Positions 18,938 through 41,857 of a stretch of DNA of 64,000 nt are shown piece by piece; within the stretch, counting starts at the first letter, position 1, and each line of letters starts with the position of its first letter. A program made the translations under genes and the position numbers. The DNA is taken from the NCBI GenBank assembly GCA_003225295.1, contig QHYZ01000052.1, forward strand, positions 1-64,000, in the 5' to 3' direction. The notes under the pieces were generated by a model. The model was not told the DNA's origin. It saw only the letters and a program-made list of their open reading frames with translations, and made no database searches. The DNA is from Acidobacteriota bacterium (lineage in GTDB: Bacteria; Acidobacteriota; Terriglobia; Acidiferrales; UBA7541).

Positions 18938-18943
18938 GGCTCT

Positions 18944-21682: not shown

Positions 21683-21692
21683 GGCTCGCTCC

Positions 21693-22025
21693 CTACGAGG
21701 CCTCCAAAATTCTGCCGATTGCGGCCACTTGTCTGCCCCATTCTCGTGTTTCGCTGTCGAGCCTCTTTCGTCCCTTCGCCGTCAGAGTGTAGTACCTTGC
21801 CCGCCTGTTGTTTTCAGTGGGTTTCCATTCGCCATCGATTAGCCCGTCCCTCTCTAGTCGTTGAATGGCCAGAAATAACGAGCCCGCATTCAGGCGGAAA
21901 ACGCCCTTGCTCATCTGTTCGATTCGCACGGAAATCCCATATCCATGCATAGGCTCCAGAGCCAACGTTTTTAGGATGAGCATATCGAGCGTGCCCTGAA
22001 CGAGATCACTCGGCTTGTCTGGCAT
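21693..22025 (-). CDS. PadR-family transcriptional regulator
   Basis: 110 residues: DLVQGTLDMLILKTLALEPMHGYGISVRIEQMSKGVFRLNAGSLFLAIQRLERDGLIDGEWKPTENNRRARYYTLTAKGRKRLDSETREW. This is the complete winged-helix domain of the acidobacterial PadR subfamily, in which the QGTLDMLIL start and GSLFLAIQRLERDGLI recognition helix are diagnostic. The usual GTLYPAL is here GSLFLAI. It heads an operon with two ADOP permeases (gap 10 nt), so it probably represses its own operon. A sigma-70-like promoter lies at 22055-22082. Confidence 0.92.
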   Translation of the reverse strand: MPDKPSDLVQGTLDMLILKTLALEPMHGYGISVRIEQMSKGVFRLNAGSLFLAIQRLERDGLIDGEWKPTENNRRARYYTLTAKGRKRLDSETREWGRQVAAIGRILEAS

Positions 22026-22054
22026 AAACCTTCTTCCCCTTGGCTACCAAGAGG

Positions 22055-22082
22055 AACATACGCTTTTTCTACTGACTGTCAA
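22055..22082 (-). promoter_or_regulatory. Promoter of the PadR-ADOP-ADOP operon
   Basis: On the minus strand TTGACA (22077-22082) and TATGTT (22055-22060) are separated by 16 bp, about 30 bp upstream of the PadR ATG at 22025. Confidence 0.6.
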
Positions 22083-22229
22083 TAGGAGAAAGACCTGAGC
22101 AGGCAACTGCCAGGCTTGGAGGGGTGAGTTCGAGCTACGACGAAAATAGCCGCGTATCTCATTGAAAAGATTGGCTCAGCAGCGAGCGGCTATTTTCATC
22201 CTTCGTTGTGACCCCGCAGGGGCCATGAT

Positions 22230-25010
22230 TTACTCGTACCGCAGCGCCACCATGGGATCGACTCGCGCGGCGCGTCGAGCGGGAATCCATGCCGCAGCCA
22301 GTGCCACGGCCAACATCACACTGATCGCGCTCACTAGCGCCGCCGGATCGCGTGGGCCAACACCAAAAAGCTGGCTGCGCAGCAGACCAGCCAGCCCCAG
22401 AGCCAGCGGCACACCTGCCGCTCCGCCCATCGCCACCAGCACCGCAACTTCGCCCAAAACCATGCGTAACACTTCTCCCGACTGCGCCCCCAGCGCCATG
22501 CGAATGCCGATCTCGCCCGTACGGCGGGTGACCGAAAAGGCGGTGACCCCATAGACGCCCAGCGAAACCAGCAACAGTGCGAACCCGCTCAGAAAGGCTG
22601 ACAGCGTTGCCAGTACGCGCTCCTGCAGCGTGTCTCGGTCGATCATATGCCGCATGGTATGGGTTTCCGTGGCCTGGATGCGAGCGTCGATCCTGCTCAC
22701 CAGTTTCTGCACCGTGGCGGAGATCGCATCCGGCGAGCCGTACGTGCGCACAAAAAACGTCGGATCGTCGCCAAACCCACCTGCCGTCTGGAAAAACGGA
22801 ATGTAGAACGCTCGCGGCTTGGGATCGCGCAAGCTGCGGTAGCTGGTGTCGTTCACGACGCCGATGATGCGCATGCGCCCCTGCGGTGCCTCCGCATCCG
22901 GGGAGTCGAAGTGGAGATAACGCCCGAGGGGGTCCTGCTGGCCGAAGTAGTAGCGCGCTAGGCTCTCACTAACGATCACCACAGGCGGAAGCTGCGGGCC
23001 CACGCCCGGCTTCGGCTCCGCGGGTGGGTGCTCGGGCTGGTCTTCCAATCCGAAGTCCCGCCCGGCCAGCAGCTTCAAACCGGCAGCCCTGGCGAAATCC
23101 GGGCCCACCGTCACGCCATAGCATTCGACATCTTCGTCCTTACCGCGCACATATCCGTCAGGGACCAGGTTATCGGTCCACGAACTATGGCTAAGGTAAG
23201 GGATCATGGAAAAACTTGCAGCAACGGTGCCGGGCAGCCGCTGGAGTTCCGCCAGAATGCGATGGTAAAGACCCCACCGCACTGCCAACTTGTCATAGCT
23301 TGGGCCGAGGTCGAGCGAGAAGAGCAGTACATGGTCGCGATCGAAGCCGGTGTCCACGCTGCGCAGCTTGTCCAGAGTGCGGATGAACAGCGCGGCAGTT
23401 GTGATCAGCAACAGCGCCAGCGCAACTTGCGCGACGATCAGGCTCTTGTCCAGTCGAAGCCCCAGCTTGTCGGCAACGAGTATCCCGCTGGTGGCCGGCT
23501 TCAACACTGGGCTCATATCCATGCGCGTCGAACGCAGCGCCGGAGCGACGCCGAACAATATGCCCGTGACGATAACAAGCCCGGTCACAAACGCGAACAT
23601 GCGCCAGTCGGGCGCAAGGTTCAACTTCAGAGGTTCGTCGCCCGAAGCGAATCCCACCAGCATGCGGCTGCCCCAGATCGCAACCACGACGCTCAACGCG
23701 CCCGCAGCGACGGATAACAGTGCGCTCTCCGTGAGCAGTTGGCGGCAGAGGCGCCAGCGCCCCGCACCGATCGATATCCGGACGGCAATTTCCCTCCGCC
23801 GCGCCGCCGCGCGCGCCAGCAGCAGGGTGGCGACATTCACGCACGCGATCAGCAGCACCAGCCCGCCAATCGTCAATAAAACGTAGAGCGAACGCGAGTA
23901 TCTGTCGCGATTCCATGAGAAACCGTTGGCGCCCGACTCGATTTCGACGTGACGCCTCTGCTCTTCGGCGAGTTGCTGCGGAGTGAGCTGCGAGCCGAAG
24001 CGCCTTAACTGCTCGCGGTGATCCACCTGGAAGAGCATGTCGAGTTGCGCTCGCACCTGCGCAGAGGTCGTGGTAGGACGCAGACGTGCGATGACGGTGA
24101 GCCAGGACGACCCGTGTTCTGTGAAGGCGCGAAAGCCCGGCTGCAAATGCTTCCTCGTCGTGACTGGAACCCATATCTGCGGCTGCTCATCGGGCTGGGT
24201 GCCACGAAACTGCAGCGGCGCCACCCCGATGATGGTGAAGGGCGTGTTGTACAGAATGAAGGTGCGCCCGATCACATGTGGATCGAGGTCGAACCGGTTC
24301 TTCCAGAACGCATAGCTGATCACCGCCACATCGTGTGGATCGCCGAGCTGATCATCCTCCTCTGTGAACATGCGGCCCACCGCAGCGCGAACGCCCAGCA
24401 CCGACCAATAACCCCCTGAAACGTCTTGACGCTCGACGAGCTCAGGTTGAGAATCGCTAACCACCGAATGGAACGTCGCTCGCGTCTTGCCGCCACCGGC
24501 GATGCAAAGCACGCCGGCTAGCGCGTCAACATGATCCCGAAACTGCTCGTACAGCGGATAGCTCCAGGCATAGTCGGCTTCTTGAGCCGTACGCTGCGAC
24601 AGCAGCACCAACTGATCTGGCGCCGTCACTGGAAGCTGGCGCAGCATGAGCGCGTCCACGATACTGAAGATCGCCGCGTTGGATCCAATGCCCAGCGCCA
24701 GCGAGAGTACGACCACGGCGGTGAACAGCGGCGAGTGCAACAGCAGGCGTGCGCCGAAGCGAACGTCCTGGGTGAATTGTTCCAGCCAGCGCCAGCCCCA
24801 GGTGTCGCGCGCTTTTTCTTTCAGGAAGATAGGATTGCCAAAAGTCCGCTGGGCGGCGTACCGGGCTTCTTCGGGGCTCATGCCTGCGGAGATGTTCTCG
24901 GCGATTTGCTGGTCAAGATGGAATTGAATTTCGTCGTCTAATCGCTGAGTGATTCGATCTCGACGAAACAAAGTCTGTAACCGCAGCCAGAATCGATGAG
25001 CCCACACCAT
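22230..25010 (-). CDS. ADOP-family ABC transporter permease
   Basis: 926 residues. Prefix domain at residues 8-80 (LRLQTLFRRDRITQRLDDEIQFHLDQQIAENISAGMSPEEARYAAQRTFGN), first TM (FTAVVVLSLALGIGSNAAIFSIVDALMLRQLPV), FtsX unit near 385-450 (LLIACVNVATLLLARAAARRREIAVRISIGAGRWRLCRQLLTESALLSVAAGALS) and a C-terminal FtsX unit (LVSLGVYGVTAFSVTRRTGEIGIRMALGAQSGEVLRMVLGEVAVLVAMGGAAGV). Its prefix differs in type from the two permeases downstream, so the two operons are not a simple tandem duplication. It starts 12 nt after a PadR gene. Role unknown; related to MacB/LolC-type extruders. Confidence 0.92.
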   Translation of the reverse strand: MVWAHRFWLRLQTLFRRDRITQRLDDEIQFHLDQQIAENISAGMSPEEARYAAQRTFGNPIFLKEKARDTWGWRWLEQFTQDVRFGARLLLHSPLFTAVVVLSLALGIGSNAAIFSIVDALMLRQLPVTAPDQLVLLSQRTAQEADYAWSYPLYEQFRDHVDALAGVLCIAGGGKTRATFHSVVSDSQPELVERQDVSGGYWSVLGVRAAVGRMFTEEDDQLGDPHDVAVISYAFWKNRFDLDPHVIGRTFILYNTPFTIIGVAPLQFRGTQPDEQPQIWVPVTTRKHLQPGFRAFTEHGSSWLTVIARLRPTTTSAQVRAQLDMLFQVDHREQLRRFGSQLTPQQLAEEQRRHVEIESGANGFSWNRDRYSRSLYVLLTIGGLVLLIACVNVATLLLARAAARRREIAVRISIGAGRWRLCRQLLTESALLSVAAGALSVVVAIWGSRMLVGFASGDEPLKLNLAPDWRMFAFVTGLVIVTGILFGVAPALRSTRMDMSPVLKPATSGILVADKLGLRLDKSLIVAQVALALLLITTAALFIRTLDKLRSVDTGFDRDHVLLFSLDLGPSYDKLAVRWGLYHRILAELQRLPGTVAASFSMIPYLSHSSWTDNLVPDGYVRGKDEDVECYGVTVGPDFARAAGLKLLAGRDFGLEDQPEHPPAEPKPGVGPQLPPVVIVSESLARYYFGQQDPLGRYLHFDSPDAEAPQGRMRIIGVVNDTSYRSLRDPKPRAFYIPFFQTAGGFGDDPTFFVRTYGSPDAISATVQKLVSRIDARIQATETHTMRHMIDRDTLQERVLATLSAFLSGFALLLVSLGVYGVTAFSVTRRTGEIGIRMALGAQSGEVLRMVLGEVAVLVAMGGAAGVPLALGLAGLLRSQLFGVGPRDPAALVSAISVMLAVALAAAWIPARRAARVDPMVALRYE

Positions 25011-25022
25011 GGCATCTCACTC

Positions 25023-25352
25023 CTACGTCGTTTGCACCACAAGATTGATCGCCGCGGATAACCGATTCCAATTTTCGGCTTCTTTCTCGAGCTGCGCGCG
25101 TCCTGCGGCGGTCAAGGAATAGAACTTGGCTTGTCTGCCCGTCTCCGTCTCCTTCCACTTGGCCTTGATCCAGGCTTTTTGTTCCAAACGGTGCAAAGCT
25201 GGGTACAGCGAGCCTTGCTGCACTTGAAGCACCTCACCCGAAATCTGCTGGATGCGTTTGGCAATGGCCCACCCGTGTTTAGGTTCGAGCGAGACCGTTT
25301 TCAGGATTAAGAGGTCGAGCGTTCCTTGAACCAGATCGTTTGGCTTCGCCAT
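25023..25352 (-). CDS. PadR-family transcriptional regulator
   Basis: 109 residues: NDLVQGTLDLLILKTVSLEPKHGWAIAKRIQQISGEVLQVQQGSLYPALHRLEQKAWIKAKWKETETGRQAKFYSLTAAGRAQLEKEAENWNRLSAAI. This is a full acidobacterial PadR winged helix with the canonical GSLYPALHRLE recognition helix. It lies 12 nt before the 926-residue ADOP gene and its own promoter (25361-25389) contains a perfect inverted repeat between -10 and -35, a good candidate for autoregulation. It is the first gene inside the tRNA-Ser-bounded segment, next to the intact tRNA. Confidence 0.93.
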   Translation of the reverse strand: MAKPNDLVQGTLDLLILKTVSLEPKHGWAIAKRIQQISGEVLQVQQGSLYPALHRLEQKAWIKAKWKETETGRQAKFYSLTAAGRAQLEKEAENWNRLSAAINLVVQTT

Positions 25353-25360
25353 ACTATGGT

Positions 25361-25389
25361 TATCTACAATCAGTATTGTCGATTGTCAA
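25361..25389 (-). promoter_or_regulatory. Promoter of the PadR-ADOP operon
   Basis: On the minus strand TTGACA (25384-25389) and TAGATA (25361-25366) are 17 bp apart, ending 9 bp before the PadR ATG at 25352; translation would start from a short leader. Confidence 0.65.
25366..25379. promoter_or_regulatory. Candidate PadR operator (inverted repeat)
   Basis: ACAAT-CAGT-ATTGT is a perfect 5-bp inverted repeat with a 4-bp spacer located in the promoter spacer. A further ATTGTC repeat flanks it at 25382-25387. Placement suits repression by the adjacent PadR protein; binding is inferred. Confidence 0.5.
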
Positions 25390-25645
25390 GATATGACTCT
25401 TCGGCAAGTGTGGGCGGAAGTTCACACAGCGCGGTCTCTCCGCTCGGCTGCGATTGGCACGGGTTCCGAAAGGACATTTCCAAGTCTGACAGCAACGGTT
25501 TTCCGGACCGTTGCTCCGACGAAACAGCGTATAGCACTGGAATCGAATCTGTCGCAAGAGCTCTGGAACTTCTTGTAAATCAGTACGATTGGCTACCAGG
25601 TCCGCTGACCTTTCGGGTTGTAAAACGGCTCAAATTTTCAACAGT

Positions 25646-25664
25646 TGGGATAACACTGGGATAA
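25646..25664. repeat. TGGGATAA direct repeat, 11-bp period
   Basis: TGGGATAA occurs at 25646-25653 and 25657-25664, 69 bp from the 3' end of the intact tRNA-Ser. It matches the repeat at 16219-16238 next to the tRNA-Ser 3' half. Confidence 0.55.
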
Positions 25665-25732
25665 GAGAACCGCCCAATTGCTCGCCTGAACCGACAAGCG
25701 GATTCTTCCTAACTCCAATGCTGGCAAGAATC

Positions 25733-25826
25733 TGGCGGAGAGGGGGGGATTCGAACCCCCGTTGGAGGTTTTAGCCCCCAAAACGGTTTAGCAAACCGCC
25801 GCATTCAGCCGCTCTGCCACCTCTCC
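25733..25826 (-). tRNA. tRNA-Ser (anticodon GCU)
   Basis: Complete class II tRNA on the minus strand: acceptor GGAGAGG pairs with CCTCTCC, discriminator G and an encoded CCA; D-arm GGCAGAGCGGC; anticodon arm GCGGT-TTGCTAA-ACCGT; long variable arm; T-arm GGGGGTTCGAATCCCCC. Anticodon GCT reads AGC/AGU serine codons. It is the intact member of a series of tRNA-Ser pieces on the same strand (14.4, 16.1, 34.5 kb), consistent with a gene regenerated by integration events. Confidence 0.95.
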
Positions 25827-26198
25827 GCGGTTTGGTTTCAATAGCTTAGCACAGTTCTCAAAATCTGCTGGGTATGCTTTTGGTGCACTATAACTGCGAA
25901 AGTGTGTGCTTCGCGAGAAAGTTGGCGGTGTAAGTCCTGCGAAATCAATCCCGGCTCCGACTGAACTTTGCACTTAGCGGTTGGGAAAACCGGCGCCATT
26001 CCTGATTCCGGTAATCGTGGCACGCTGGCCCGAACGACCGAAACGGCATGAACGCTACGCAAACACTTTCGATCATCATGGGGCGTGTCGGTCGCCCTTC
26101 TCCCCGAACCCCGTTTTTGGAATGCAAAGGCGGAACCAAACACCCAGGGCCGAGCGGGGGCGCCTCAATGTAGAGTGCGTCATTCTTCACCGAAACGG
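25827..26198. other. Intergenic region upstream of tRNA-Ser
   Basis: Holds the tRNA promoter region and one copy (25878-25945) of a degenerate sequence, TTTTGGTGCACT..TAAC followed by GTAAGTCCTG, also found at 34420-34490 beside the tRNA-Ser 5' half. A 101-codon minus frame (25838-26143) has no recognisable domain and is not called. Confidence 0.55.
25878..25945 (+). repeat. Degenerate direct repeat, left copy (TTTTGGTGCACT/GTCCTG)
   Basis: TTTTGGTGCACTATAAC (25878-25894) and GTAAGTCCTGCGAAAT (about 25929-25945) match TTTTGGTGCACTTTAAC and GTAAAGTCCTGAAAAT at 34420-34490 in the same orientation, with a poorly conserved middle. The two copies would bound an 8.5-kb segment. Confidence 0.5.
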
Positions 26199-27563
26199 TT
26201 ATCTTGCCGGCGTTCGGGTCCTGATATGTCCCGGCGTGGCGCCAAGTATGGCAGGATCAATTTTCGCGACCGCGCGCTCGAGAGGCTGAAAATCGGGCCA
26301 TGAGTATTCCTTCGCAACGGCTCGAAGCAGTTCCTGAATGAGCGGTTTGCCGCCATCCGAGTTCGTCATCACCGCAAAACCAGGCCCCATCTCGGTGTAA
26401 ACCTCTAACTCGCAACGGTACCCTTCGTTCTCTCCGGCGTGAGCGAATTTCGTCTTGTGCCCGGGCGACTCCAGCGCGAAGCCGAGTCCCCACCAATCAT
26501 CATACTGGCGGGTCAGCATCTCGCGGACCATCCGCTGCGAAAGGATCTTGTTTGATTTCCCGACGTATTCGTTCTGAACCTCAATCGCCATGCGCGCAAG
26601 ATCCGACGGAGTAGTCCAAAGTCCAGCAGGCGCCATCTCGGGATAGGTATGCCAGCCGCCCTTTATAGGTTCGCCGTTGTCGAGATAGGGCGTAGCGGCC
26701 AACGGCCAAAGATTTCTCGGGAGCGGCTGTTCGTACGTGCCGTGCGTCAAACCCGCGGGTCGCAAGACAAGCTCATTCATAATTTCCGGGAAAGCTTTCT
26801 GCGTAACATCGCTCATAAGCGTCTGCAGAATGACGTACCCGCCTCCCGAATACCGCCCAATCGTCCCGGGCACAACATTAACCCGAATTGGGCCGGTGTT
26901 TGCTGGTTTTTCGCCATTCAAGATTTGCACGACGGTGGGGATAGGCTCGTCAGAGGCGTAACCGGGGAAGCCGCGGACCGTTATTCCGGCTCTGTGGCTC
27001 AGGATGCGACGGACGGTGACCTTTTGCTGCGCAGTGAATTGGTTATCGGGAACTTTCCACGCGCGCAGCTTGTCGTTCACGTTCTCGTCCAGGCTTAGCT
27101 TGCCCTCCTGCACAAGATGCAGTGCCGCCAGTGCGCTCACCGGCTTGCTGATCGATGCCGCTTGAAACAGAGTTTCCGAAGTCACCGGCTTTTTCGTGGC
27201 CATGTCAGCCAGTCCGTATGCGCGCGTCCAGATAATCTTCCCGTGGTCGAAGAATGCGACGCTTACGCCCGGAACTTTGTAGAACTGCATGCGCTCGTTG
27301 AGTTTCATTGAGCGAACCGCTTGTCCCTTGATGACAACTGCGGGAAGCAGGTCGTTTTCGATGCGCGCGATACGAGCCGCACTGCCTTCGTCCTCAGGTT
27401 GCTGCGACTGACCGAATCCGGGCTGCACCAGGCCGGCGGCAAGCGCGGAAAAGCGAAGCGAGGATTGTTCGACCTGCTGCGTTGATAGCGCATTCGCATG
27501 CGTGATCAACGCGATCGCAGAAAACAGTCCCGATAAGGCAAGACGCCGATTGACCAGAGTCAT
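26199..27563 (-). CDS. Serine hydrolase, beta-lactamase class C / esterase family (S12)
   Basis: 454 residues with an N-terminal signal peptide (LALSGLFSAIALITHANA). The active-site tetrad S-x-x-K is SISK in LFQAASISKPVSALAALHLVQEGKL (about residues 140-165); RYSGGGYVILQTLM supplies the second motif, with YSG in place of the usual Y-x-N, and FAHAGENEGY gives the H-x-G third motif. The fold is that of penicillin-binding protein-like beta-lactamases, D-peptidases and esterases. It is transcribed after a PadR regulator and a small membrane protein (46-nt gap), so it may be part of that operon. Antibiotic resistance should not be assumed from homology. Confidence 0.9.
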   Translation of the reverse strand: MTLVNRRLALSGLFSAIALITHANALSTQQVEQSSLRFSALAAGLVQPGFGQSQQPEDEGSAARIARIENDLLPAVVIKGQAVRSMKLNERMQFYKVPGVSVAFFDHGKIIWTRAYGLADMATKKPVTSETLFQAASISKPVSALAALHLVQEGKLSLDENVNDKLRAWKVPDNQFTAQQKVTVRRILSHRAGITVRGFPGYASDEPIPTVVQILNGEKPANTGPIRVNVVPGTIGRYSGGGYVILQTLMSDVTQKAFPEIMNELVLRPAGLTHGTYEQPLPRNLWPLAATPYLDNGEPIKGGWHTYPEMAPAGLWTTPSDLARMAIEVQNEYVGKSNKILSQRMVREMLTRQYDDWWGLGFALESPGHKTKFAHAGENEGYRCELEVYTEMGPGFAVMTNSDGGKPLIQELLRAVAKEYSWPDFQPLERAVAKIDPAILGATPGHIRTRTPAR

Positions 27564-27609
27564 CGTGATTTCTCGGCCGAAATTGTCTTGGAGCCGCTGA
27601 ACCAGTTAA

Positions 27610-27924
27610 CTATTTGCCGTTGCACACATGCGACATTGCATGAAATATCGCGATGAACAAGGCGAACGAGCAAAGCAGCGACAGCGACGTCGCAACCACA
27701 ATTGAGCTTTGCAGTTGAAGTGGAACAGCGACAGAAAACACTTCCGCTAGTGCGAACCGCCACACTCGCACGACTCCCGGCAGACCGTTGTGTTCCCACT
27801 CGCCGCAGATCAGATCAGAAAACGTGGTTACCATCTCGCTCCCGAAGCGCAGGCGAAAGTCGCCCGGATGCGTGAGCAACAGCATTTTGTAGAGGCCACA
27901 GCTCACTCGAACAGCGCTACTCAT
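27610..27924 (-). CDS. Small membrane protein associated with PadR/permease modules
   Basis: 104 residues from the ATG at 27924, four bases after the PadR stop. The N-terminus VSCGLYKMLLLTHPGDFRLRFGSEMVTTFSDLICGEWEHNGLPGVVRVWRFALAEVFSVAVPL is a soluble motif (LYxxLLxxxPxxFRxRFGxEM) that in Acidobacteria typically precedes ADOP permeases or stands as a small ORF beside PadR genes. It is followed by one or two TM segments (SSIVVATSLSLLCSFALFIAIFHAM). An in-frame ATG 13 codons upstream is less likely because it would overlap the PadR gene. Function unknown; perhaps a stripped-down permease prefix. Confidence 0.7.
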   Translation of the reverse strand: MSSAVRVSCGLYKMLLLTHPGDFRLRFGSEMVTTFSDLICGEWEHNGLPGVVRVWRFALAEVFSVAVPLQLQSSIVVATSLSLLCSFALFIAIFHAMSHVCNGK

Positions 27925-27928
27925 AACA

Positions 27929-28306
27929 TCACTCCGATGTTTTCGGCACGAGCTTCTTGTCACGTGCCAAGCGCACTACAGATTCCATGCGGCTGACGTC
28001 GGCGACTAGGATTGCCTTTCCCGTGCGGGTCAGCTTGTAATACCTCCTCCGCTTTTCGTGGTCGGATTGACCGCCGGCGCTCTCCGTTTCTTCAATCAAG
28101 TCCAAATCCAATAGCCTCTGGATTGTCGTATAGAGCGTGCCAGGGCCCATACGGAAGTGGTTGTCAGAAATTCGGGAGGCTGTCTGCATGATGGCGTATC
28201 CGTGCTTCTCCCCGTCGGCCAGCGCGAAAAGAATAAAGAATACCGCAGGAGTCAGGGGGAGCAGGTGCTGCAGATCATCTGGAACGCGATTGGCCGCAGT
28301 AGGCAT
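27929..28306 (-). CDS. PadR-family transcriptional regulator
   Basis: 125 residues from the ATG at 28306; the frame is open to 28549 but that extension overlaps a promoter and has no domain. LPLTPAVFFILFALADGEKHGYAIMQTASRISDNHFRMGPGTLYTTIQRLLDLDLIEETESAGGQSDHEKRRRYYKLTRTGKAIL is a PadR winged helix of a branch distinct from the three other PadRs here (GTLYTTIQRLLDLDLI recognition helix). It leads an operon with a small membrane protein and a serine hydrolase. The promoter at 28323-28350 overlaps the palindrome TGATATATCA. Confidence 0.9.
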   Translation of the reverse strand: MPTAANRVPDDLQHLLPLTPAVFFILFALADGEKHGYAIMQTASRISDNHFRMGPGTLYTTIQRLLDLDLIEETESAGGQSDHEKRRRYYKLTRTGKAILVADVSRMESVVRLARDKKLVPKTSE

Positions 28307-28321
28307 GGCTATGTCATCTAC

Positions 28322-28331
28322 TGATATATCA
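28322..28331. promoter_or_regulatory. Candidate PadR operator TGATATATCA
   Basis: A perfect 10-bp palindrome lies over the -10 element; it sits inside a larger imperfect dyad, ATCT at 28316-28319 opposite AGAT at 28337-28340. Probable autoregulatory site of the PadR gene starting at 28306. Confidence 0.5.
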
Positions 28332-28350
28332 CTAACAGATAGTCTGTAAA
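28323..28350 (-). promoter_or_regulatory. Promoter of PadR-membrane protein-hydrolase operon
   Basis: Minus-strand TTTACA (28345-28350) and TATATC (28323-28328) with 16-bp spacing, 16 bp upstream of the PadR ATG. Confidence 0.5.
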
Positions 28351-28364
28351 GTTTTTTTTGTGAC

Positions 28365-28918
28365 TGGTGTCTTCGGATCCGGGCAGTGCTCAACGACGAC
28401 GCGGAGCGTCCACGGGTCATCACAACCCTGCCACGGCGGGGGTATCGGTTCATCGCAAAAACTACGCCCACGGCAGCGGCTGGAGCCCCCTTACCGCAGG
28501 TTTCATCTGAAAGGCACGAAGACAGCGCGAAGAATCCGGCGGCGAGCACGCCTTTGGTCGCTCATACCTCGCGTGCGCGGCTGTGGCTGGCGCTAGGGCC
28601 GTGGTGCTTTTGATCGCTACGGTGATCGCCTATCGCTCTGTGGTGCCAAAGCGTCCGGCGGCACAGATGCGCATTGTCGTGCTGCCGTTCCAGAACCTGA
28701 CTGGAGATCCGAGCCAGGAGTTTTTCGCTGATGGGATGACGGAAGAGATGTTTTCACAGCTCGGCGCCATGGACCCGAAACAGCTCGGCGTGATCGCTCG
28801 TACGTCGGCAGTGAAGTACAAGAACAGTGGCAAGGGCATTGACCAGATCGGAATGGCCTGTTGGCAACAACCGACTGACGACGTAGGTGGAGACGCGCGG
28901 CTTTCCACGTGCGAGTGA
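28365..28918 (+). pseudogene. CadC-type winged-helix / TolB-like regulator, fragment
   Basis: Frame 28386-28613 begins VLNDDAERPRVITTLPRRGYRFIA, the very end of a trans_reg_C (OmpR/CadC) winged-helix domain. A frameshift near 28600 moves to the frame 28583-28918, VVLLIATVIAYR (membrane segment) then MRIVVLPFQNLTGDPSQEFFADGMTEEMFSQLGAMDPKQLGVIARTSAVKYKNSGKGIDQIG, the TolB/adenylate-cyclase-associated domain found in acidobacterial CadC-TPR sensors. The start of the winged helix and the whole TPR region are missing, so this is a remnant truncated at both ends and frameshifted. Confidence 0.75.
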
Positions 28919-28945
28919 ATCTATTCCAGTCTGTGCCGCGGTAGC

Positions 28946-31600
28946 TCATTCTTCGCGCAGGAGTATCGCCGGATCGATTGACAGCGCGCGCCGCGCCGGA
29001 ATCCACGTAGCCAGTAGCCCCAGCAACGCCATAACAAGAACAACACCAGCCAATACCAGCGGATCGCGCGCAGTTGCCTGATATACGATGGAGGCCAGCA
29101 CGCGGCTTGCCAGAATTCCGAGCAGCAACCCTGCCGCGGAACCAACAGTTAGCAATTTGAATGCGCCCCCCAACGCGACCTGTAACACTGCGTGACGCTG
29201 TGCGCCCAGGGCAATACGAATACCCAACTCCCGCAGCCGCTTACTAACCGAGTACGCGGCCATTCCAAAGATGCCCGATATGGACAGCATTGCGCCCATC
29301 GCGCCTAGCACACTCAGCGACAGCGTCGCCACACGTGCAGGGAATAGAACGGTGTCCAGTCCTCGGTTCCACGTTTGCATGAAAAACGGTAGCCCCCCAT
29401 CAAGGTCCCGCAGCTGATTCCTCATGGCTACCGCCAATTGCTGTGGATCGCGGCTCGAACGAATCACAAGCCATGAGCTACTCGATGGCGACTGCAGGAT
29501 GGGGAGAAACATGGCCGGCTGTGGATTTTCGGTGAGGCTGTTATATTTGCCGTCTTCGACAATGCCAACCACTTGTACGCGCGTGCCGTCGGGCGTCTTG
29601 CAGTATCTACCCGCGGCGTTTGTTGCACTGCCAAAGAGCCTCCTGACAAACTCCCGATTCACCACGGCCACGCGTGCGGCGTCTTTGTCGTCACGCCAGG
29701 AGAAGGTCCTTCCCGTCAGTAAGGTGGTACCTGCCGCGCGGAAGTAATCGGGAGAGATGTTGAAGATTAAGGCTTCAGCTAAGGCATTCGATGGCCTTAG
29801 ATCTGTTGTTTCGTCAGTGAAGACATTCCAACGGGGATTTCCGCCACCCGCTAATGGTGGCGCATCGACCAATCCCACGGAGGTTACACCGGGGATTGTC
29901 TCCATGGCGTCGATCATGCGCTTTTGCATGACGCGCACTCTGTCGCCTCGGTAACCTGCCATATTCAGATCTGTGTTCACCAGCATGGTGTTCCGTGGCT
30001 CAAAACCGAAATTGCTGTGCAGCGAGCGCAGCAGTCCACGCACTGCAACGAATGAAGAAGTGACCAACACTGCACAGATCGCGATTTGCACACCAAGCAA
30101 CAGGTCTCGGACTGCCAACCGCCGCCCCACCCTGACGATTGATCCCGACTTAACAATCTGATAAGGATCGGTGTGAAGTACCTGTCTCACCGGGACCGCT
30201 CCAAAGAGGAATCCGCCCGCCACGGCCAACAGCAAAGCGACTCCGTAAACATTTGCATCCGGGCTCACCGGTATATTGATGGGATATTGGGGTATCGGCT
30301 GCCACGTGCTCAGCCCGCGCAATAGAATTAGACTGCACCAGAGTCCAACGGCGCCTCCCATCAGTGAGACGAGCACTGCTTCGGTAAAGAGTTGCCGTAG
30401 AATTCGTGTGCGGCCAGCTCCCATGGCGAGCCGTAGCGCGACTTCTCGGGAACGGTCAGCGGCTCGGGCGGCAACCAGGTTGCCCAGGTTGGCGCAGACG
30501 GCCAGCAGAATCAACCCCGCCAACAGCATCAGCCCGGTTAGAAAGGCTTGTACCGGACCACTGAAAGAATCGCCATAGAGACTCGGGCGCGCTAAGAGAA
30601 AACTCATTTGACCATCGTCTTTGGGGTAGTTCTTTTCGAGATCGGAGCCAATCGAGTTCAGATCCGCAATGGCCTGGGCCGGAGTGATTCCCGCCTTTAC
30701 ATGTCCGAGCGGCGTGACACAACGGTTTCCGCGCGCATTGAGGACGCTCCACCCATCCACCTGTTCTTGCTCAACGATCGGCACAAAGAAATCCGGAGAG
30801 AAAAACAATAAAGTCCCGCGAAACTCAGGCGGCGCCACGCCGACGATGGTAAACGGACTCTTATTGAGCTGAACCGTGCGGCCCACCACGCTACGATCGC
30901 CCTCGAAATGGCTACGCCAATACGCGTAGGTGAGCACGATATACGGAGCGCTGTTGGGGCCGTGTTCATCGGACGGGTGAATGATCCGGCCAAGGTATGG
31001 TTGAATGCCTAATGCTTCGAAGTAATTCCCGCTCACCTGATAGACCCAGACGTGGGACGGGTTTACGCCCGTGTCAAGCGCTGCCCGACCAATGGAGAAA
31101 GCTGCCAGGCCATCAAAAGTGCGGTTGCGATCGCGCAGATCAAGATAGTTAGGATAGGATTCGATGCCCAGCTTATCGCTTGCGCGCTCAAGTTCGTACA
31201 AGGTCTCGGCCTGGGGCACATTCAGCGGTCGGAGGATCAGCGCATTCAATACGCCAAAAACAACGGCGTTTGCGCCGATGCCCAGCGCCAGCGTGACGAT
31301 AGCCACAGCAGCAAAGCTGGGAGATCTGCGCAACGTGCGGAGGGTGAAGCGCAGATCCTGGAGCAAATCTTCGATCAATGGCAGTCTTCGCTCTGCTCGA
31401 TAATCTTGTTTCATGGCCTCCACCCCGCCAAATTTCAACATGCTTTGCCGTCGTGCCTCAATGGGTGACAGACCGGCGCGAAGATTTTCCTCGGTTTGCA
31501 AAGCGATGTGTTCCTCAATCTCTTCTCGCAATCGTTCGTCTTGTGCCCGCCTTGCCGCCGGGTTGAGCAGACGAGTGAGGAACCGCCTCAGAGATCTCAT
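28946..31600 (-). CDS. ADOP-family ABC transporter permease
   Basis: 884 residues from the ATG at 31600, which overlaps the PadR stop as ATGA; the frame extends 20 codons upstream but inside the PadR gene. Prefix domain residues 1-80 (LRRFLTRLLNPAARRAQDERLREEIEEHIALQTEENLRAGLSPIEARRQSMLKFGG), first TM FAAVAIVTLALGIGANAVVFGVLNAL, FtsX unit LLAVCANLGNLVAARAADRSREVALRLAMGAGRTRILRQLFTEAVLVSLMGGAVG and C-terminal unit MAAYSVSKRLRELGIRIALGAQRHAVLQVALGGAFKLLTVGSAAGLLLG. ADOP of the same type as the others; no partner ATPase adjacent. Strong translational coupling to PadR. Confidence 0.92.
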   Translation of the reverse strand: MRSLRRFLTRLLNPAARRAQDERLREEIEEHIALQTEENLRAGLSPIEARRQSMLKFGGVEAMKQDYRAERRLPLIEDLLQDLRFTLRTLRRSPSFAAVAIVTLALGIGANAVVFGVLNALILRPLNVPQAETLYELERASDKLGIESYPNYLDLRDRNRTFDGLAAFSIGRAALDTGVNPSHVWVYQVSGNYFEALGIQPYLGRIIHPSDEHGPNSAPYIVLTYAYWRSHFEGDRSVVGRTVQLNKSPFTIVGVAPPEFRGTLLFFSPDFFVPIVEQEQVDGWSVLNARGNRCVTPLGHVKAGITPAQAIADLNSIGSDLEKNYPKDDGQMSFLLARPSLYGDSFSGPVQAFLTGLMLLAGLILLAVCANLGNLVAARAADRSREVALRLAMGAGRTRILRQLFTEAVLVSLMGGAVGLWCSLILLRGLSTWQPIPQYPINIPVSPDANVYGVALLLAVAGGFLFGAVPVRQVLHTDPYQIVKSGSIVRVGRRLAVRDLLLGVQIAICAVLVTSSFVAVRGLLRSLHSNFGFEPRNTMLVNTDLNMAGYRGDRVRVMQKRMIDAMETIPGVTSVGLVDAPPLAGGGNPRWNVFTDETTDLRPSNALAEALIFNISPDYFRAAGTTLLTGRTFSWRDDKDAARVAVVNREFVRRLFGSATNAAGRYCKTPDGTRVQVVGIVEDGKYNSLTENPQPAMFLPILQSPSSSSWLVIRSSRDPQQLAVAMRNQLRDLDGGLPFFMQTWNRGLDTVLFPARVATLSLSVLGAMGAMLSISGIFGMAAYSVSKRLRELGIRIALGAQRHAVLQVALGGAFKLLTVGSAAGLLLGILASRVLASIVYQATARDPLVLAGVVLVMALLGLLATWIPARRALSIDPAILLREE

Positions 31601-31944
31601 GACAAGTCCTCGGCTTTCACTTCGAAGAAGCGAGCGATGATCGCAGCCGTTTGTTCCCAATCTTGTGTCTCGACCTGCAACTGCTTACGTCCTGCCCGTG
31701 TAAGTCGATAGAAGCGCGCCCTACGATTATTCGCTGAGGCACCCCACTCGGACGCAATCGCTCCTTCTTGCTCCAGCTTCAGCAGCACGGGATACAGAGT
31801 CCCTTGATTCACGGCAAGCAGATCCCCGCTGATCTGCTCGATGCGCCGGGCGATACCATAGCCGTGCTGCGGTCCTAGGACACCGAGAGTCTTAAGGACC
31901 ATCAATGCTAACGTGCCCTGTAGGACGTCCGCTTTTTGTTTCAT
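31597..31944 (-). CDS. PadR-family transcriptional regulator
   Basis: 115 residues from the ATG at 31944; an upstream in-frame start at 31986 would add 14 unrelated residues. KADVLQGTLALMVLKTLGVLGPQHGYGIARRIEQISGDLLAVNQGTLYPVLLKLEQEGAIASEWGASANNRRARFYRLTRAGRKQLQVETQDWEQTAAIIARFF is a full acidobacterial PadR with GTLYPVLLKLEQEGAI recognition helix. The stop overlaps the ADOP start by 4 nt (ATGA). Probable repressor of this two-gene operon; I see no clear sigma-70 promoter upstream. Confidence 0.93.
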   Translation of the reverse strand: MKQKADVLQGTLALMVLKTLGVLGPQHGYGIARRIEQISGDLLAVNQGTLYPVLLKLEQEGAIASEWGASANNRRARFYRLTRAGRKQLQVETQDWEQTAAIIARFFEVKAEDLS

Positions 31945-34565: not shown

Positions 34566-35029
34566 GCGATCGGTTCGGCCGAGCAAACCGGCCGAATGGT
34601 CTGAGTCCATCATTAACGAAAGTCACAAAAGGTCTGGTTCTCGCAAGAAATGCTGGTGTTGGGCTGACCATTGGGAATTGCTTGCGTCAAACAGAAAGGG
34701 TCGGTTGTCGGATTCCGCCTTGGCGGGACTGGAATTCTTTCCTTTCGGGCGATTTGAACATAGAATGGATGACACTGGGCAGGGGGTGCGGCTGACGCCG
34801 GTGGAGATACCGGTTCCAGTAAGTCCCCTGCTTTGAAGCCCGAACCGCGAAAGTGGAGCAAACCTCCCGCGAAACATTTCGACCCGAATGGGCGTATGTA
34901 GGGTAGAGGCAGTCGGGCTGACATCTGTGTCCCCGCGGGTTTAATCGCTCCTAGGATTGCTTGGAATAAGGCGCCCGTGGCGGAAGTTTCGAAGCGCGAC
35001 GGCAGCATGGTGGTTTGAAGGGGAATCGA

Positions 35030-36439
35030 ATGAAGACGTGGCATAAGGTAGCGATTGGCGCGGGCGCCGTGGTGGTGCTCGGCGGAATTGTTATGTTCAG
35101 CGTGAATCAGGCGAATAAGGGCGTGGTCACCGTTCAGACGGCCAAAGTGGCCAATCAGGAAAGCCTGGTGTCGCTCGTGACAGCCTCCGGCGAAATCAAG
35201 CCGACAACCTATACAAACGTGACCGCTCAGGGATTCGGAAGAATCACTCAGATCCTTGTAAAGGAGGGCGACCACGTCAAGAAGGGGGATAAATTGCTCC
35301 TGCAGGAGAACGTGCAGGCGAATGCGGACGTGCAAGCGCAGGGCGCGGCCGTCAATTCGGCAGAGTCTGGCGTGCAGGCTGCTGAAGCCAGTTTCAAGGC
35401 GGCGCAATCGGATCTGATCTCCCAGCAGGCCAACCTTGAGAAGGCGAAACTGGATTACGATCGCGGACAAGGTCTTTACAAAGATGGTCTGATTCCAAAG
35501 CAGGATTTCGATCAACGCAAAACCGCCTATGATGCCCAATCCGCAACCGTGGATTCTTCGAAAGCGCGGGTACAATCGCTGAAGGCCACGCTCGATCAGA
35601 TGCGGGCACAAGTGAATCAGGGCCGTGCCGTGCTGGTGCACACGCAAGATGTGCTGCACAAGACGACCTATACCTCGCCGATCAACGGAATTGTCAGCTA
35701 TCTTCCTGAGCGTGTGGGCGACTTCGTCGTCCCGGGCATGCAGAACGCCAATGGCAGCTTCATCATGACTCTTTCGGATATGTCCGTAGTGACGGCAGAA
35801 GTGAAGGTCGACGAGACGGACATCGTCAACGTGAAAATGGGCCAAGAGGCCGACGTGACCATCGACGCGGTGCCGGGAAAGATTTTCAAGGGCAAAGTGA
35901 CGGAGATTGGTTCGCAAGCGGTGCTGCGTAGTTCGGGACTCACAACGACGCAGACGACGACCAGCACGCAAGAAGCCAAGGACTTTAAGGTGGTCGTGAC
36001 GCTGGCGAATCCTCCTGAGAATTTGCGGCCCGGTCTATCCTCGACAGCCAAGATCAAGACGGCAGAACGAAAAAATGTCGTGGCCATTCCGATTCAAGCT
36101 CTGGCGGTGCGCACGCGGAAGGATTTGGAAGAAGCCGCCAAGAATGCAAAGAAGCAGGGCAGTTCAAATGTGACGCTAGCAGCGCCGCCACCTCCGGCAC
36201 CGGGCGATCCGAAAAAGGACGAAGTCCAGGGCGTGTTCGTGATCAATGGAAAGAAGGCATTGTTCCGGGCGGTTGAGACCGGCATCGCCGGTGTCACGGA
36301 CATCGAGATTACCAAAGGTTTGCAGCCCGGTGACGAGATCGTCGTGGGCAGCTACAAAGCACTGCGCACCCTGAAACCGGAGTCTCAGGTGAAAGTGGAC
36401 AACAGCGCGCCGAAGAAGCAGGAAGATCAGCAAAGCTGA
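35030..36439 (+). CDS. Efflux periplasmic adaptor subunit (MacA/HlyD family)
   Basis: 469 residues from the ATG at 35030 (GAAGGGG 7 nt upstream; a TTG at 35015 is in frame). An N-terminal membrane anchor ([19 protein letters not shown]), a biotinyl-lipoyl-like segment ([32 protein letters not shown]), a long alpha-helical hairpin with coiled-coil character (residues about 105-205), a second lipoyl half ([23 protein letters not shown]), and a beta-barrel ([41 protein letters not shown]) are in order. The adaptor bridges an inner-membrane transporter and an outer-membrane channel. A MacB-type ATPase follows in the same operon but no permease or TolC is adjacent. Confidence 0.92.
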
Positions 36440-36467
36440 GGCGCAGCCAAGCAGGAGGGAGATGCAA

Positions 36468-37211
36468 ATGCCTGTCGAGACACCAGCCATAGATTCCTAC
36501 CGTGAAGACCTGGTCAGCTCCGGCGTAGTGATCAAGACGGAAGCTCTGGCCAAGGTCTACGAAATGGGCGCGGAACAGGTTCATGCGTTGCGCGGGGTGG
36601 ATGTGGAGATCCGCAAGGGCGAATACGTGGCGATCATGGGGCCATCCGGATCGGGCAAATCCACGCTGATGAATCTGATCGGGTGCCTGGATTCGCCCAG
36701 TTCCGGGAAGTACTGGCTGGCGGGGCGGCTGGTGAGCGACTTGGATGATGATGAGCTCGCTTACATCCGGAACAAAGAGATTGGCTTCGTGTTTCAGACC
36801 TTCAACCTGCTGCCACGCGCGACGGCGCTCCACAACGTCGAATTGCCGCTGATCTACAACGGTACGCCGTCAGAAGAGCGCATCGAGAAAGCGAAGAAGG
36901 CGCTTGAACGCGTGGACCTGATGGACCGGATGCACCACAAACCGAATGAGCTTTCCGGAGGCCAGCGGCAGCGCGTGGCAGTTGCGCGAGCGCTGGTCAA
37001 TTCCCCATCGATCGTGCTGGCTGACGAGCCCACCGGAAACCTCGATTCGAAAACGGGCGAAGAGATCATGGCGCTCTTCGCGAACCTGCACCAACAGGGA
37101 AACACGATTATCCTGGTGACCCACGAACATGACATTGCACAGCACGCGCACCGCATCATTTTCATCCGCGACGGCAAGATCGCTTCCGACGAGGCAGTCG
37201 CCAAGAAGTAA
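36468..37211 (+). CDS. ABC transporter ATP-binding protein (MacB/LolD type)
   Basis: 247 residues from the ATG at 36468, chosen because AGGAGG (36453-36458) is 9 nt upstream; the ATG at 36462 is too close. Walker [10 protein letters not shown] at about 58-66, Q-loop [22 protein letters not shown], signature [15 protein letters not shown], Walker [14 protein letters not shown] and the H-loop LVTHEHD are all intact. The [24 protein letters not shown] form is typical of the MacB/LolD group that drives mechanotransmission with FtsX-type permeases. Coupled to the MacA gene (28-nt gap). Its permease partner is not adjacent; the ADOP permeases upstream also lack ATPases. Confidence 0.93.
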
Positions 37212-39966: not shown

Positions 39967-40368
39967 TCAGGCGTCCATTTGCTGCGCTAGCATGTCCCGG
40001 CTGAAGGAGATGCGGCGCTCCAGGGCGACAGCCGCGAAATAGGCGCACTGTCCGCGTTCCGATTCCGTCCAGGCCCGCATGGAAGGAACAAGGCGAGCTA
40101 CCGTCGAGCGCACGAAATTCAAGAGGCTGAAATAGGCACCGATCGCCTGGACGGAATTGCGGTCTTCCCGGCGCTCCGGACAGAGCTGCAGAAGCTGCAT
40201 GACCCGTTTGAAATCGTCACCGGAAGCAATCCTCTGGATGCCGGTAACGTCCTTTACCTCGGCCGAGAGAACCTGCTTCGAGGACGCGGCGATCAGCGAG
40301 CGGCAATAAGAGATGAAAAACTGCAACAACGCCGCTGCCGAGAAAACGAAAATGACGCCGGCCATCAT
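39967..40368 (-). CDS. Hypothetical membrane-anchored protein
   Basis: 133 residues from the ATG at 40368, whose ATGA overlaps the stop of the membrane protein upstream (40365-40367), so the two are translationally coupled; a second ATG lies at 40365. One TM segment (MAGVIFVFSAAALLQFFISYCRSLIAASS) is followed by a soluble, helix-rich tail (VKDVTGIQRIASGDDFKRVMQLLQLCPERREDRNSVQAIGAYFSLLNFVRSTVARLVPSMRAWTESERGQCAYFAAVALERRI). No domain recognised. It probably functions with its coupled partner. Confidence 0.75.
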   Translation of the reverse strand: MMAGVIFVFSAAALLQFFISYCRSLIAASSKQVLSAEVKDVTGIQRIASGDDFKRVMQLLQLCPERREDRNSVQAIGAYFSLLNFVRSTVARLVPSMRAWTESERGQCAYFAAVALERRISFSRDMLAQQMDA

Positions 40369-41099
40369 CGGGGCACCACGGCGAGCCGGGAAGGCACGAT
40401 ACGAGCATCTTCCGGAAGGTGCCAGAAGGTATAAGCCCACGACAACGGGAGGAAGCAGCCGAACAAGGGCGTCAGAAATTCAAAGAAATTGCCGCGGCTT
40501 TGATAAAGGTTTTGCAACGCAAAGTTGGCCGCAAACAGGCTGAAATAGACACCCATCGAGAGTACCAGCTGAATCAATCGCGTGCGCGTTTCACGCATTT
40601 TCATCACGGCGGCCCACAGGATGTAAGTCAGGACCAGCCCGACAAAGTAGAGATTCTGGGAAAGCTCCACTACGAAATGTGTCACCAGCTTGGAACTGGA
40701 CTGCTGAACCACGGCGTAGGAAAACAGTGCCGTGCCGGAAAATAGGATTAGGGTCCCGATCCTGATGTAGCGCTCGGCTTTCAAATCACTGAAGATGTGA
40801 GAATAGAGGCTCATCAAGGCAAAATAAAGGACAATGGTGAGCAGGGAGTCCGAATAATAATAGAAGTAGAGATATTCCTTGGACGTAAAACCATAGTGGC
40901 TGAGGATGTTGTAGCGGGCAATGCTGAACACCACGGATGCAGCCATGTACACATTCAGAAGGATATAACGCCGAAGCGCGTCCTTCTTGTATGCGCACAC
41001 CACTACTGCTGACTCCAGCACCGTGCACAGAAGCCAGACAACATATTCGTAAGGACCAAGCACGAAACCATCCTTGCCGCGCCCCGGTCCTTCCCGCAA
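40365..41099 (-). CDS. Seven-TM hypothetical membrane protein
   Basis: 244 residues with about seven hydrophobic segments, e.g. YEYVVWLLCTVLESAVVVCAY, YILLNVYMAASVVFSIARY, TIVLYFALMSLYSHIF, IGTLILFSGTALFSYAVV, NLYFVGLVLTYILWAAV, LIQLVLSMGVYFSLFAANFAL, PLFGCFLPLSWAYTFWHL. The sequence does not match a family I can name, though such seven-TM proteins are frequent in Acidobacteria. The stop overlaps the next gene (ATGA). The true start may be internal (for example a GTG/TTG before GPYEYVVW). Confidence 0.75.
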   Translation of the reverse strand: MREGPGRGKDGFVLGPYEYVVWLLCTVLESAVVVCAYKKDALRRYILLNVYMAASVVFSIARYNILSHYGFTSKEYLYFYYYSDSLLTIVLYFALMSLYSHIFSDLKAERYIRIGTLILFSGTALFSYAVVQQSSSKLVTHFVVELSQNLYFVGLVLTYILWAAVMKMRETRTRLIQLVLSMGVYFSLFAANFALQNLYQSRGNFFEFLTPLFGCFLPLSWAYTFWHLPEDARIVPSRLAVVPR

Positions 41100-41116: not shown

Positions 41117-41338
41117 TTACTTCCAAGGCGTCGGCGGTTGCGGCGCTCCACCGTTCTTCCAAGGCGTCGGTGGTTGCGGCGCTCCACCATTCTTCCATGG
41201 TGTCGGCGGCTGTGGTGCCCCACCGTTCGCCATGATTATGGAGCCATTACTCCCATGCGTGACGACTATCGTCTTTAGACTCATTGCCCCGACCAGTACG
41301 AGCATGGCGAGGAAGAGAACCGTTAGTTTACGTGACAT
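41117..41338 (-). CDS. Small secreted peptide with three NGGAPQPPTPWK repeats
   Basis: 73 residues from the ATG at 41338 (GGAGG 4 nt upstream); the frame to 41362 would add eight residues before the signal peptide. KLTVLFLAMLVLVGAMSLKTIVVTHG is a secretion signal or membrane anchor, followed by IIMA and then exactly three copies of NGGAPQPPTPWK up to the stop. The underlying DNA is three 36-bp repeats with a few silent differences, so the peptide repeat is being conserved against synonymous drift. No known domain. A TTGACA box lies about 60 bp upstream of the ATG. Confidence 0.7.
   Translation of the reverse strand: MSRKLTVLFLAMLVLVGAMSLKTIVVTHGSNGSIIMANGGAPQPPTPWKNGGAPQPPTPWKNGGAPQPPTPWK
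41120..41227 (-). repeat. Three tandem 36-bp coding repeats
   Basis: Three copies encode NGGAPQPPTPWK each; copies differ mainly at third codon positions (for example GGC/GGT, GTC/GTT on the coding complement). Confidence 0.85.
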
Positions 41339-41782
41339 TGTGCCTCCGAGGTGAGGAAACAACCCCGGAAACAGTATATGTTACATAACCAATGTCAAGC
41401 GGTTCAGACGATAAGCCTGTTTCCTATCAATACACAGCTACTCATCCCATTCTTTCGATAAGCTTTCGCCTACCTCGGTGTGTGGGACGTGTTCCATCCA
41501 GTGCAGGATAGTTTCTGCGACTGTGTGGGTCAACGGTACTGAGGTACTAGAATTAATAGGACCAATGGCGCTCGTGAGTCTCCTACGAAGGCTGCCAGGG
41601 ATTTCCGCAGGATCCCGATAACCGCACTTCTCTGCTCTCGGTTCAGTCAGTGTGTTGCGGCTGGCTTCGGCTGGCCTGGCCAGAACCTTCTCTAGGAGGC
41701 CTAGTCCGTCCCGACAAATCCGACAAATACAGCGCCTTGACACATTCGCAGGCGAATCCGTAGCATAAAGGACTGCGTCCTG
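41339..41782. other. Intergenic region before tRNA-Met
   Basis: The upstream part carries the promoter region of the small repeat peptide. A 101-codon minus-strand frame (41438-41743) covers much of the rest; its product has no domain I recognise and it may be decayed element sequence. Confidence 0.5.
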
Positions 41783-41857
41783 CCGGCGTAGCTCAGTGGA
41801 AGAGCGAGGGTCTCATAATCCCTAGGCCGTGGGTTCGATTCCCCCCGCCGGCACCAT
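41783..41857 (+). tRNA. tRNA-Met (anticodon CAU)
   Basis: 75 nt including encoded CCA: acceptor GCCGGCG/CGCCGGC, D-arm AGCTCAGTGGAAGAGC, anticodon loop CTCATAA, T-arm GGGTTCGATTCCCCC. The anticodon is CAT. The last pair of the anticodon stem (AGGGT/TCCCT) is a T-T mismatch where elongator tRNA-Met usually has A-T, so slight decay is possible. Downstream lie integrase-arm-like repeats and an IS21 remnant. Confidence 0.88.

Follow-up and report, generated by a model that had tools for sequence, protein, structure and literature searches.

The yeast alpha-factor receptor Ste2 is a seven-helix GPCR. In Gram-positive quorum sensing, represented by AgrD/AgrC, PapR/PlcR and SHP/Rgg, a short secreted peptide is encoded beside its cognate receptor, and divergent specificity groups exist. 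Bacteria also possess seven-helix sensors, namely 7TMR-DISM and 7TMR-HD, with fused periplasmic and cytoplasmic domains. To our knowledge, the combination of an exported peptide signal with a bare seven-helix receptor is familiar from eukaryotes and not known from diderm bacteria. With regard to precursors, a study of fungal alpha-pheromone and KEX2-processed repeat precursors describes an export signal followed by 1 to 16 tandem copies in Ascomycota, with copy number and sequence changing between species and with repeats that frequently vary within one precursor (PMC6339444).

In the window, i.e. the whole 64,000-nucleotide stretch of acidobacterial DNA that was analysed, a small gene for a repeat peptide heads a three-gene operon. 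As in fungal alpha-factor, there is an export leader followed by tandem copies of a short peptide, variable between species in number and sequence; unlike the fungal precursors, the host is bacterial, dibasic sites are absent between most units, and the copies are mostly identical. Membership in the KEX2-processed repeat proteins was rejected, since dibasic sites are lacking between nearly all units. The candidate receptor has seven predicted helices, as many as that of yeast, and may work in the manner of alpha-factor/Ste2 without belonging to that system; unlike Ste2, it is encoded in the same operon as the peptide and has no detectable GPCR sequence similarity. A short exported peptide beside a candidate receptor, with divergent specificity, recalls the Agr, PlcR and Rgg systems, but the window operon has a multi-copy precursor and a diderm host, and it contains neither a histidine kinase, nor a regulator of the Rgg/PlcR type, nor a processing transporter. 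Compared with 7TMR-DISM and 7TMR-HD, the candidate sensor is likewise a bacterial seven-helix membrane protein, but a bare bundle without a Pfam match of that kind. A literature search, thin on subscription journals and bioRxiv, found no report of such a system in Acidobacteriota, and the three-gene module, present in several families of soil Acidobacteriota, is apparently undescribed.

The peptide precursor and its homologues

The features of the operon are as follows.

41117..41338, minus strand: gene 1, exported repeat-peptide precursor of 73 aa (ATG at 41338-41336, stop at 41119-41117), an ORF with homologues in the same operon slot
41343..41347, minus strand: GGAGG, likely ribosome-binding site of gene 1; ggagg also lies 5' of most genus homologues
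41228..41338, minus strand: leader, residues 1-37, MSRKLTVLFLAMLVLVGAMSLKTIVVTHGSNGSIIMA, recognised by its long hydrophobic stretch and strong genus-wide conservation
41192..41227, minus strand: repeat unit 1, NGGAPQPPTPWK, tandem repeat
41156..41191, minus strand: repeat unit 2, NGGAPQPPTPWK, tandem repeat
41120..41155, minus strand: repeat unit 3, NGGAPQPPTPWK, tandem repeat
40365..41063, minus strand: gene 2, seven-helix membrane protein of 232 aa, with a GTG start chosen by alignment (an alternative TTG start at 41099 gives 244 aa)
39967..40368, minus strand: gene 3, protein of 133 aa with one N-terminal TM helix and a helical part, in ATGA overlap with the gene 2 stop

An initial annotation of this DNA had described a small exported peptide with three identical 12-residue repeats, and the ORF, its 73 residues and its units were all confirmed, residues 38-73 being three perfect copies of the 12-residue unit. 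At the DNA level, a tandem repeat spans 41120-41228 (period 36, three copies, 86% DNA matches). The three copies differ in 8 nucleotide columns, 8/8 of them synonymous, against an expectation of 26% for random change in these units; the earlier wording, that the repeats differ mostly at silent positions, was correct but understated. The tandem-repeat match and the all-silent differences argue against a chance repeat. As for the claimed signal peptide, the hydrophobic leader stands, its role as an export signal being judged by eye from the sequence and not by a predictor. The leader is likely cut, or anchored, directly before the first repeat unit, at a putative cleavage site. Gene 1 has no match among Pfam and NCBIfam models. 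A search of the window genome (8.13 Mb, 385 contigs) returned one convincing peptide copy, that of the window, and three further matches (E 0.56-8.75) were dismissed as noise. The promoter and terminator scan gave 2 and 4 sites, respectively, compared with 1.5 and 3.7 in shuffles. Close upstream of the operon, the other strand carries a tRNA-Met gene (window 41782-41856, plus strand).

The search for relatives proposed in the initial annotation found the repeat peptide, at E <= 1e-4, in 33 of 36 genomes of the genus and in 16 of 53 genomes of other genera of the family (89 family genomes, most of the genomes compared being metagenome assemblies); matches above this threshold were left out of the counts, though some of them gave real operons. 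No frameshifted peptide was seen in the translated loci, and the stops found inside homologue matches correspond to shorter arrays. Neither of the two outcomes that would have counted against the initial annotation, missing homologues or frameshifts among near relatives, was therefore observed. In the genus, the leader follows the consensus MSRKLxVxxLAMLVLVGAMSLKTVVV...IMA, and alignment columns L15, G17, A18 and M19, together with the A preceding the first unit, are invariant in 30 of 30 aligned leaders (5 of 35 loci were omitted: two cut by contig ends, two second copies and one spurious). By eye, the A-ending junctions before units (xMA|N, LVA|N, VIA|N) resemble cut sites.

The core of the unit varies from species to species (QPPTP, LPPTP, LPPNP, APPVP, APPTP, VPPVP, LPPSP, TPPSP, PPTTP and others). 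Genes mostly carry 1 to 4 copies in the family and 1 to 8 overall, and the repeat is absent in 10 of 59 family loci, after prior removal of L086 (contig end) and L093 (spurious). The PP pair is missing in 4 of 38 distinct aligned cores, as well as in a DGTTTAPEMR unit. Dibasic KEX2-type sites do not occur between the repeats of the window peptide, and among the linkers compiled only L047 has KR and KK at the junctions.

Selection on the repeat copies

In a motif-anchored count with unlimited mismatches (L086 and L093 excluded beforehand), 42 of 49 multi-unit genes of the family have identical 9-residue units, with 321 silent columns and 24 codons with a replaced residue. Of the seven exceptions, two (L049 and L085) reflect a lost register, whereas the units of L065, L072, L078, L088 and L091 differ, which leaves about five real ones; L078 is unequal only at the ninth residue, and in L091 one of four copies has one replaced residue (WGGTPMPKTPW). 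An alternative count of 48/49 identical is biased, because it took the best exact repeat as core. In another family, copies counted at no more than 2 mismatches to the motif-anchored core are identical in 21 of 23 multi-copy genes, with 133 silent columns versus 2 replaced codons (P ~ 3e-66 if columns are independent). Fifteen genes of the first family, which were picked for an exact 12-residue core and hence for identity, display 129 silent columns and no residue change where 26-29% silent change is expected, an excess with log10 P of about -73 under the assumption of independent columns, which does not hold across related species. Linkers vary where cores do not (e.g., MFR/SSR/SFR/SAQ). The initial annotation had proposed purifying selection for a defined function, and this reading is supported by cores that stay mostly identical within a gene while linkers drift, and by the position of the gene at the head of a conserved operon with a seven-helix protein.

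Among 13 three-unit genes of the genus, the 39 within-gene copy pairs show no residue difference (0 in 39/39), whereas the cores differ in 74 of 78 pairs of genes. Copies at the same position in related genes are 0-3 nt apart in 10 of 12 comparisons and 7 and 8 nt apart in the remaining two, compared with 5.7-6.3 nt on average for copies at different positions. Since related species share silent inter-copy differences in most same-core comparisons, the copies are old, which speaks against a recent duplication of units. Identity within genes combined with change between species implies that new variants must spread to all copies, rarely, and are then held. L240 has only 3 silent columns among its eight IGSAPMPTGK copies, and was therefore perhaps recently expanded; in L247, degenerate unit-like stretches were seen by eye beyond the counted copies.

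The operon and its surroundings

Gene 2 (about 232 aa, seven predicted helices) lies downstream of the peptide gene on the same strand in 53 of 61 loci, window included, mostly at a spacing of 40-90 nt (53 nt from peptide stop to gene 2 start in the window; about 0.9 kb in L061). The eight exceptions comprise the contig end L086, the spurious L093 and six loci with a related distant layout (L083, L084 and L087-L090). Gene 3 (about 133 aa, one TM helix) follows. When the start codon closest to the end of gene 2 is assigned to it, start and gene 2 stop overlap (ATGA) in 49 of the 53 loci of a second collection where gene 3 was found. This collection (L094-L147) stems largely from the same genomes as the first and is not an independent sample. 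The peptide is present in all of L118, L119, L122, L143 and L146, about 0.9 kb away in L118. In L054 (genome G008), where the peptide consists of one unit, gene 2 is broken into two ORFs, of 165 and 114 aa, that overlap, through either an assembly error or decay.

Around the fixed trio, the synteny changes. In the genus, an RDD protein gene lies downstream in 30 of the 61 loci, followed on the opposite strand by genes for a PLP-decarboxylase (18 loci), an ABC ATPase (27) and an HlyD protein (25), and a DAG-kinase-like gene is located upstream in 20 loci. In other genera, TilS and FtsH genes follow the trio instead (about 15 loci). The HlyD and ABC-ATPase pair, at 35015-37211 on the plus strand of the window, is separated from the operon by about 4-6 kb on its downstream side and runs on the opposite strand. 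Retained in 25 (HlyD) and 27 (ABC ATPase) of 61 loci, it may be an exporter or simply shared synteny; a role of this pair or of FtsH in export or cutting is possible. Among the neighbours common to at least 10 of the 61 loci, no regulator linked to the window-type operon was seen, and neither the operon nor those of these neighbours that could be named include a modification enzyme. Elsewhere in the window (16274-31660, minus strand), four ORFs of about 900 aa resemble MacB-like permeases by eye, and three of them end in VDP(I/M)(V/I)ALRYE.

The predicted seven-helix protein and its one-helix partner

The AlphaFold model of gene 2 has seven helices (pLDDT 79.5, pTM 0.75). Mean K+R values of 2.64/2.11/3.73 in inner loops versus 0.09/0.93/0.07 in outer loops predict an N-out/C-in topology; as predictions, helix number and topology agree with those of the GPCR and rhodopsin superfamily. 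A Tyr-rich stretch where helix 3 begins on the outer side (Y64, Y66, Y68 and Y70) ranks among the residues that are invariant or nearly so. In an alignment of 52 sequences, no position of this kind is a His or Cys. Exosortases and intramembrane proteases rely on conserved catalytic Cys/His or Ser-His residues; gene 2 is thus unlikely to encode an enzyme that depends on a His or Cys, and both identities were rejected for it.

The window protein has no match in Pfam or NCBIfam and its relatives share no consistent Pfam family; none of 52 members matches the Pfam 7tm or rhodopsin families at E <= 1, and the profile retrieved from the PDB sequences a single unrelated chain (E 1.5). In Foldseek, GPCRs and rhodopsins ranked first, with a best E of 0.017, none at E <= 0.001, and query TM-scores of 0.30-0.55 among the matches listed. 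VIA Z scores were 14.6 for a designed GPCR-like fold and 13.7 for a class T GPCR, values that may reflect nothing more than an arrangement common among helical bundles. Gene 3 belongs to no Pfam or NCBIfam family, and its fold search gave nothing useful (best Foldseek E 2.0).

Covariation of the core with gene 2

Across 45 loci, core distance follows gene 2 distance beyond gene 3 with a partial correlation of 0.33, compared with 0.055 for gene 3 beyond gene 2. In the genus (26 loci), the core follows the outer half of gene 2 (partial r 0.58) and not the inner half (-0.18), and 0 of 500 random column splits did as well, for halves that were fixed after the top-scoring columns were known and loci that are related by descent. 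Splits as good were frequent in the genus controls (leader, 143/300; gene 3, 200/300; RDD, 247/300, with 25 loci). The signal was also found with outer versus inner thirds (5/300) and with halves set by helix midpoints (2/400), and was weaker when only the 17 loci with the classic 12-mer were used (49/400). For the thirteen closest pairs, Spearman coefficients were 0.72 for the outer half (P 0.005) and 0.49 for the inner half (P 0.09), and 0.53 for the difference between the two halves (P 0.06).

In 19 loci of other genera, no effect was observed (partial 0.03, 276/300 splits as good; 278/300 with hand-aligned cores). Pooling all 45 loci gave 12/300, and the second family (27 loci) showed a trend only (partial 0.30, 43/400), with 68/400 in its 22 loci with gene 3 and 387/400 for the gene 3 control. 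These results lend moderate support to a core that touches the outer side of gene 2.

Distribution and related operons

At E <= 1e-5, the gene 2 profile matches 111 of 299 genomes of the class, in 41 of 106 genera. Of 40 loci read outside the family, 33 encode an exported, Pro-containing peptide ahead of gene 2, with units such as HGGAPIPPIPF (x3), IGADPVPLPP (x4), IGSAPAPMPP (x5) and IGSAPMPTGK (x8). In six of the seven misses the contig extends no more than 382 nt upstream, and in the seventh, L230, the small exported ORF is dissimilar. In the second collection, 54 records are named, and they carry Acidobacteriota labels (Ca. Acidiferrum typicum, Acidiferrales, 'gp2', Terriglobia and others), apart from one bin labelled Betaproteobacteria, in a scan that covers close relatives only. 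Gene 2 has no relative in viral contigs or plasmids and the peptide none in phages, and mobile cargo was rejected on these grounds.

The six loci of distant layout form a second type of operon, in which peptides of, e.g., the ADGG.P.PP kind are followed by a different multi-TM protein of about 260 aa, again of the seven-helix kind, and a one-TM protein of about 180 aa. The two multi-TM groups are related (hhalign probability 98.1 over 211 columns), whereas homology between gene 3 and the one-TM protein of the second type is unsupported (probability 0.6). The profile of the second group matches 36 of 297 genomes of the phylum, and a short exported Pro-containing ORF was seen by eye upstream in about 9 of 29 loci. 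The window genome itself has two second-type operons, L148 (G000:C316) and L149 (G000:C148), with different peptides containing ...ADGTDPVPPPKPLPW... and ...YADGAPWPPRLAPKPP...ADGGPLPPPIPPTP..., respectively, and thus three candidate peptide/receptor channels in all (C140, C316 and C148). A further seven-helix gene of this genome, L151 (G000:C332), has no recognisable peptide upstream, and is a candidate orphan receptor or a decayed locus.

An XRE-type regulator lies near the second-type operons in 7 of 8 family loci, and a protein of about 149 aa in the same 7; both are found near L148 and L149, and also beside the operons of L083, L084, L088, L089 and L090. The regulator ties the superfamily to gene regulation, and the pair is a possible output arm.

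A putative peptide-receptor module

In our preferred reading, to which we assign a probability of roughly 55%, the operon is a module made of a multi-copy peptide precursor and a dedicated seven-helix receptor encoded side by side. The leader would export the precursor across the inner membrane and be cut near the conserved ...(I/V)MA|N junction. The array would then be cut between units, or act as a multivalent chain, to give copies of one Pro-rich peptide of about 11 residues, in the window NGGAPQPPTPW(K). This peptide would bind the outer face of the neighbouring N-out/C-in gene 2 protein, which would pass the signal inside with its translationally coupled one-TM partner, gene 3. Copies would stay identical because every one of them must fit the same receptor, and peptide and receptor would drift together between species into species-specific pairs. 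In a diderm host, action between cells would still need a route for the peptide through the outer membrane. Within this scheme, the operon, the selected identity of copies, the change between species and the spread are observed, helices and topology are predictions, and processing, binding, direction of signalling, action between cells and output are inferences.

This reading draws on operon synteny, the identity of copies under selection, linker drift, core differences between genes, outer-half covariation in the genus, the XRE regulator near the related version and the lack of conserved His/Cys in gene 2. Counted against it are the failure of covariation outside the genus, the weak GPCR-like fold match, the unequal units and the lack, among neighbours common to at least 10 loci, of a regulator linked to the window-type operon. 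Among the functions listed in the initial annotation, a ligand and a precursor cut at each repeat gain from the core identity, the linker drift and the operon with a seven-helix protein; it had overlooked the two downstream partner genes, the change of the core between species and the spread through the class. A class-wide logic resembling alpha-factor and GPCRs, with species-specific multi-copy pheromones, free-standing seven-helix receptors in the same operon, a one-TM relay and several related channels per genome, is a tentative extension to which we give somewhat less than even odds.

The strong conservation of the leader, the single peptide gene per operon and the tight synteny would also suit a cis-acting subunit, i.e. 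a leader-anchored peptide whose Pro-rich tail sits permanently in a three-protein membrane complex and sends no diffusible signal. We regard this as unlikely, as it leaves the 1 to 8 copies, their identity and the free linkers unexplained, and the A-ending junctions look like cut sites. Still less probable is a bacteriocin, with antimicrobial units and a seven-helix protein protecting the producer: a fast-changing core, a membrane partner, covariation in one genus and the HlyD/ABC pair downstream would all be in keeping with it, but the peptide is not sporadic in the genus, the transporter pair is outside the operon and replaced by tilS and ftsH in about 15 loci of other genera, relatives of gene 2 are absent from viral contigs and plasmids and those of the peptide from phages, and the related version adjoins a DNA-binding regulator.

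Precursors of multi-core modified peptides (RiPPs) consist of a leader and repeated cores, an architecture that gene 1 resembles. The initial annotation had accordingly listed a modified or polymeric peptide, an option that fares poorly: the operon encodes no modification enzyme, the nameable common neighbours are the RDD, DAG-kinase-like, PLP-decarboxylase, HlyD/ABC, TilS and FtsH genes, repeat number ranges from 1 to 8, and single-copy versions exist in the genus, so that a RiPP or a structural cell-surface polymer appears very improbable. An export leader and a Pro-rich C-terminus directly upstream of gene 2 could finally recall SecM, with a polyproline arrest in the peptide regulating gene 2 translation. 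As some cores and the DGTTTAPEMR unit have no PP, and as an arrest motif need not be repeated, identical between copies or species-specific, we give this explanation hardly any credence.

Implications for Acidobacteriota

With regard to the peptide-receptor module, the ligand candidates can be read directly from the DNA in about ninety loci, and the within-gene repeats provide a built-in record of the residues under selection. If the reading is true, synthetic peptides could be used to test the system at once, its small seven-helix proteins would form a new receptor family, and Acidobacteriota, which are abundant but poorly understood soil bacteria, would have a means of communication or self-recognition.
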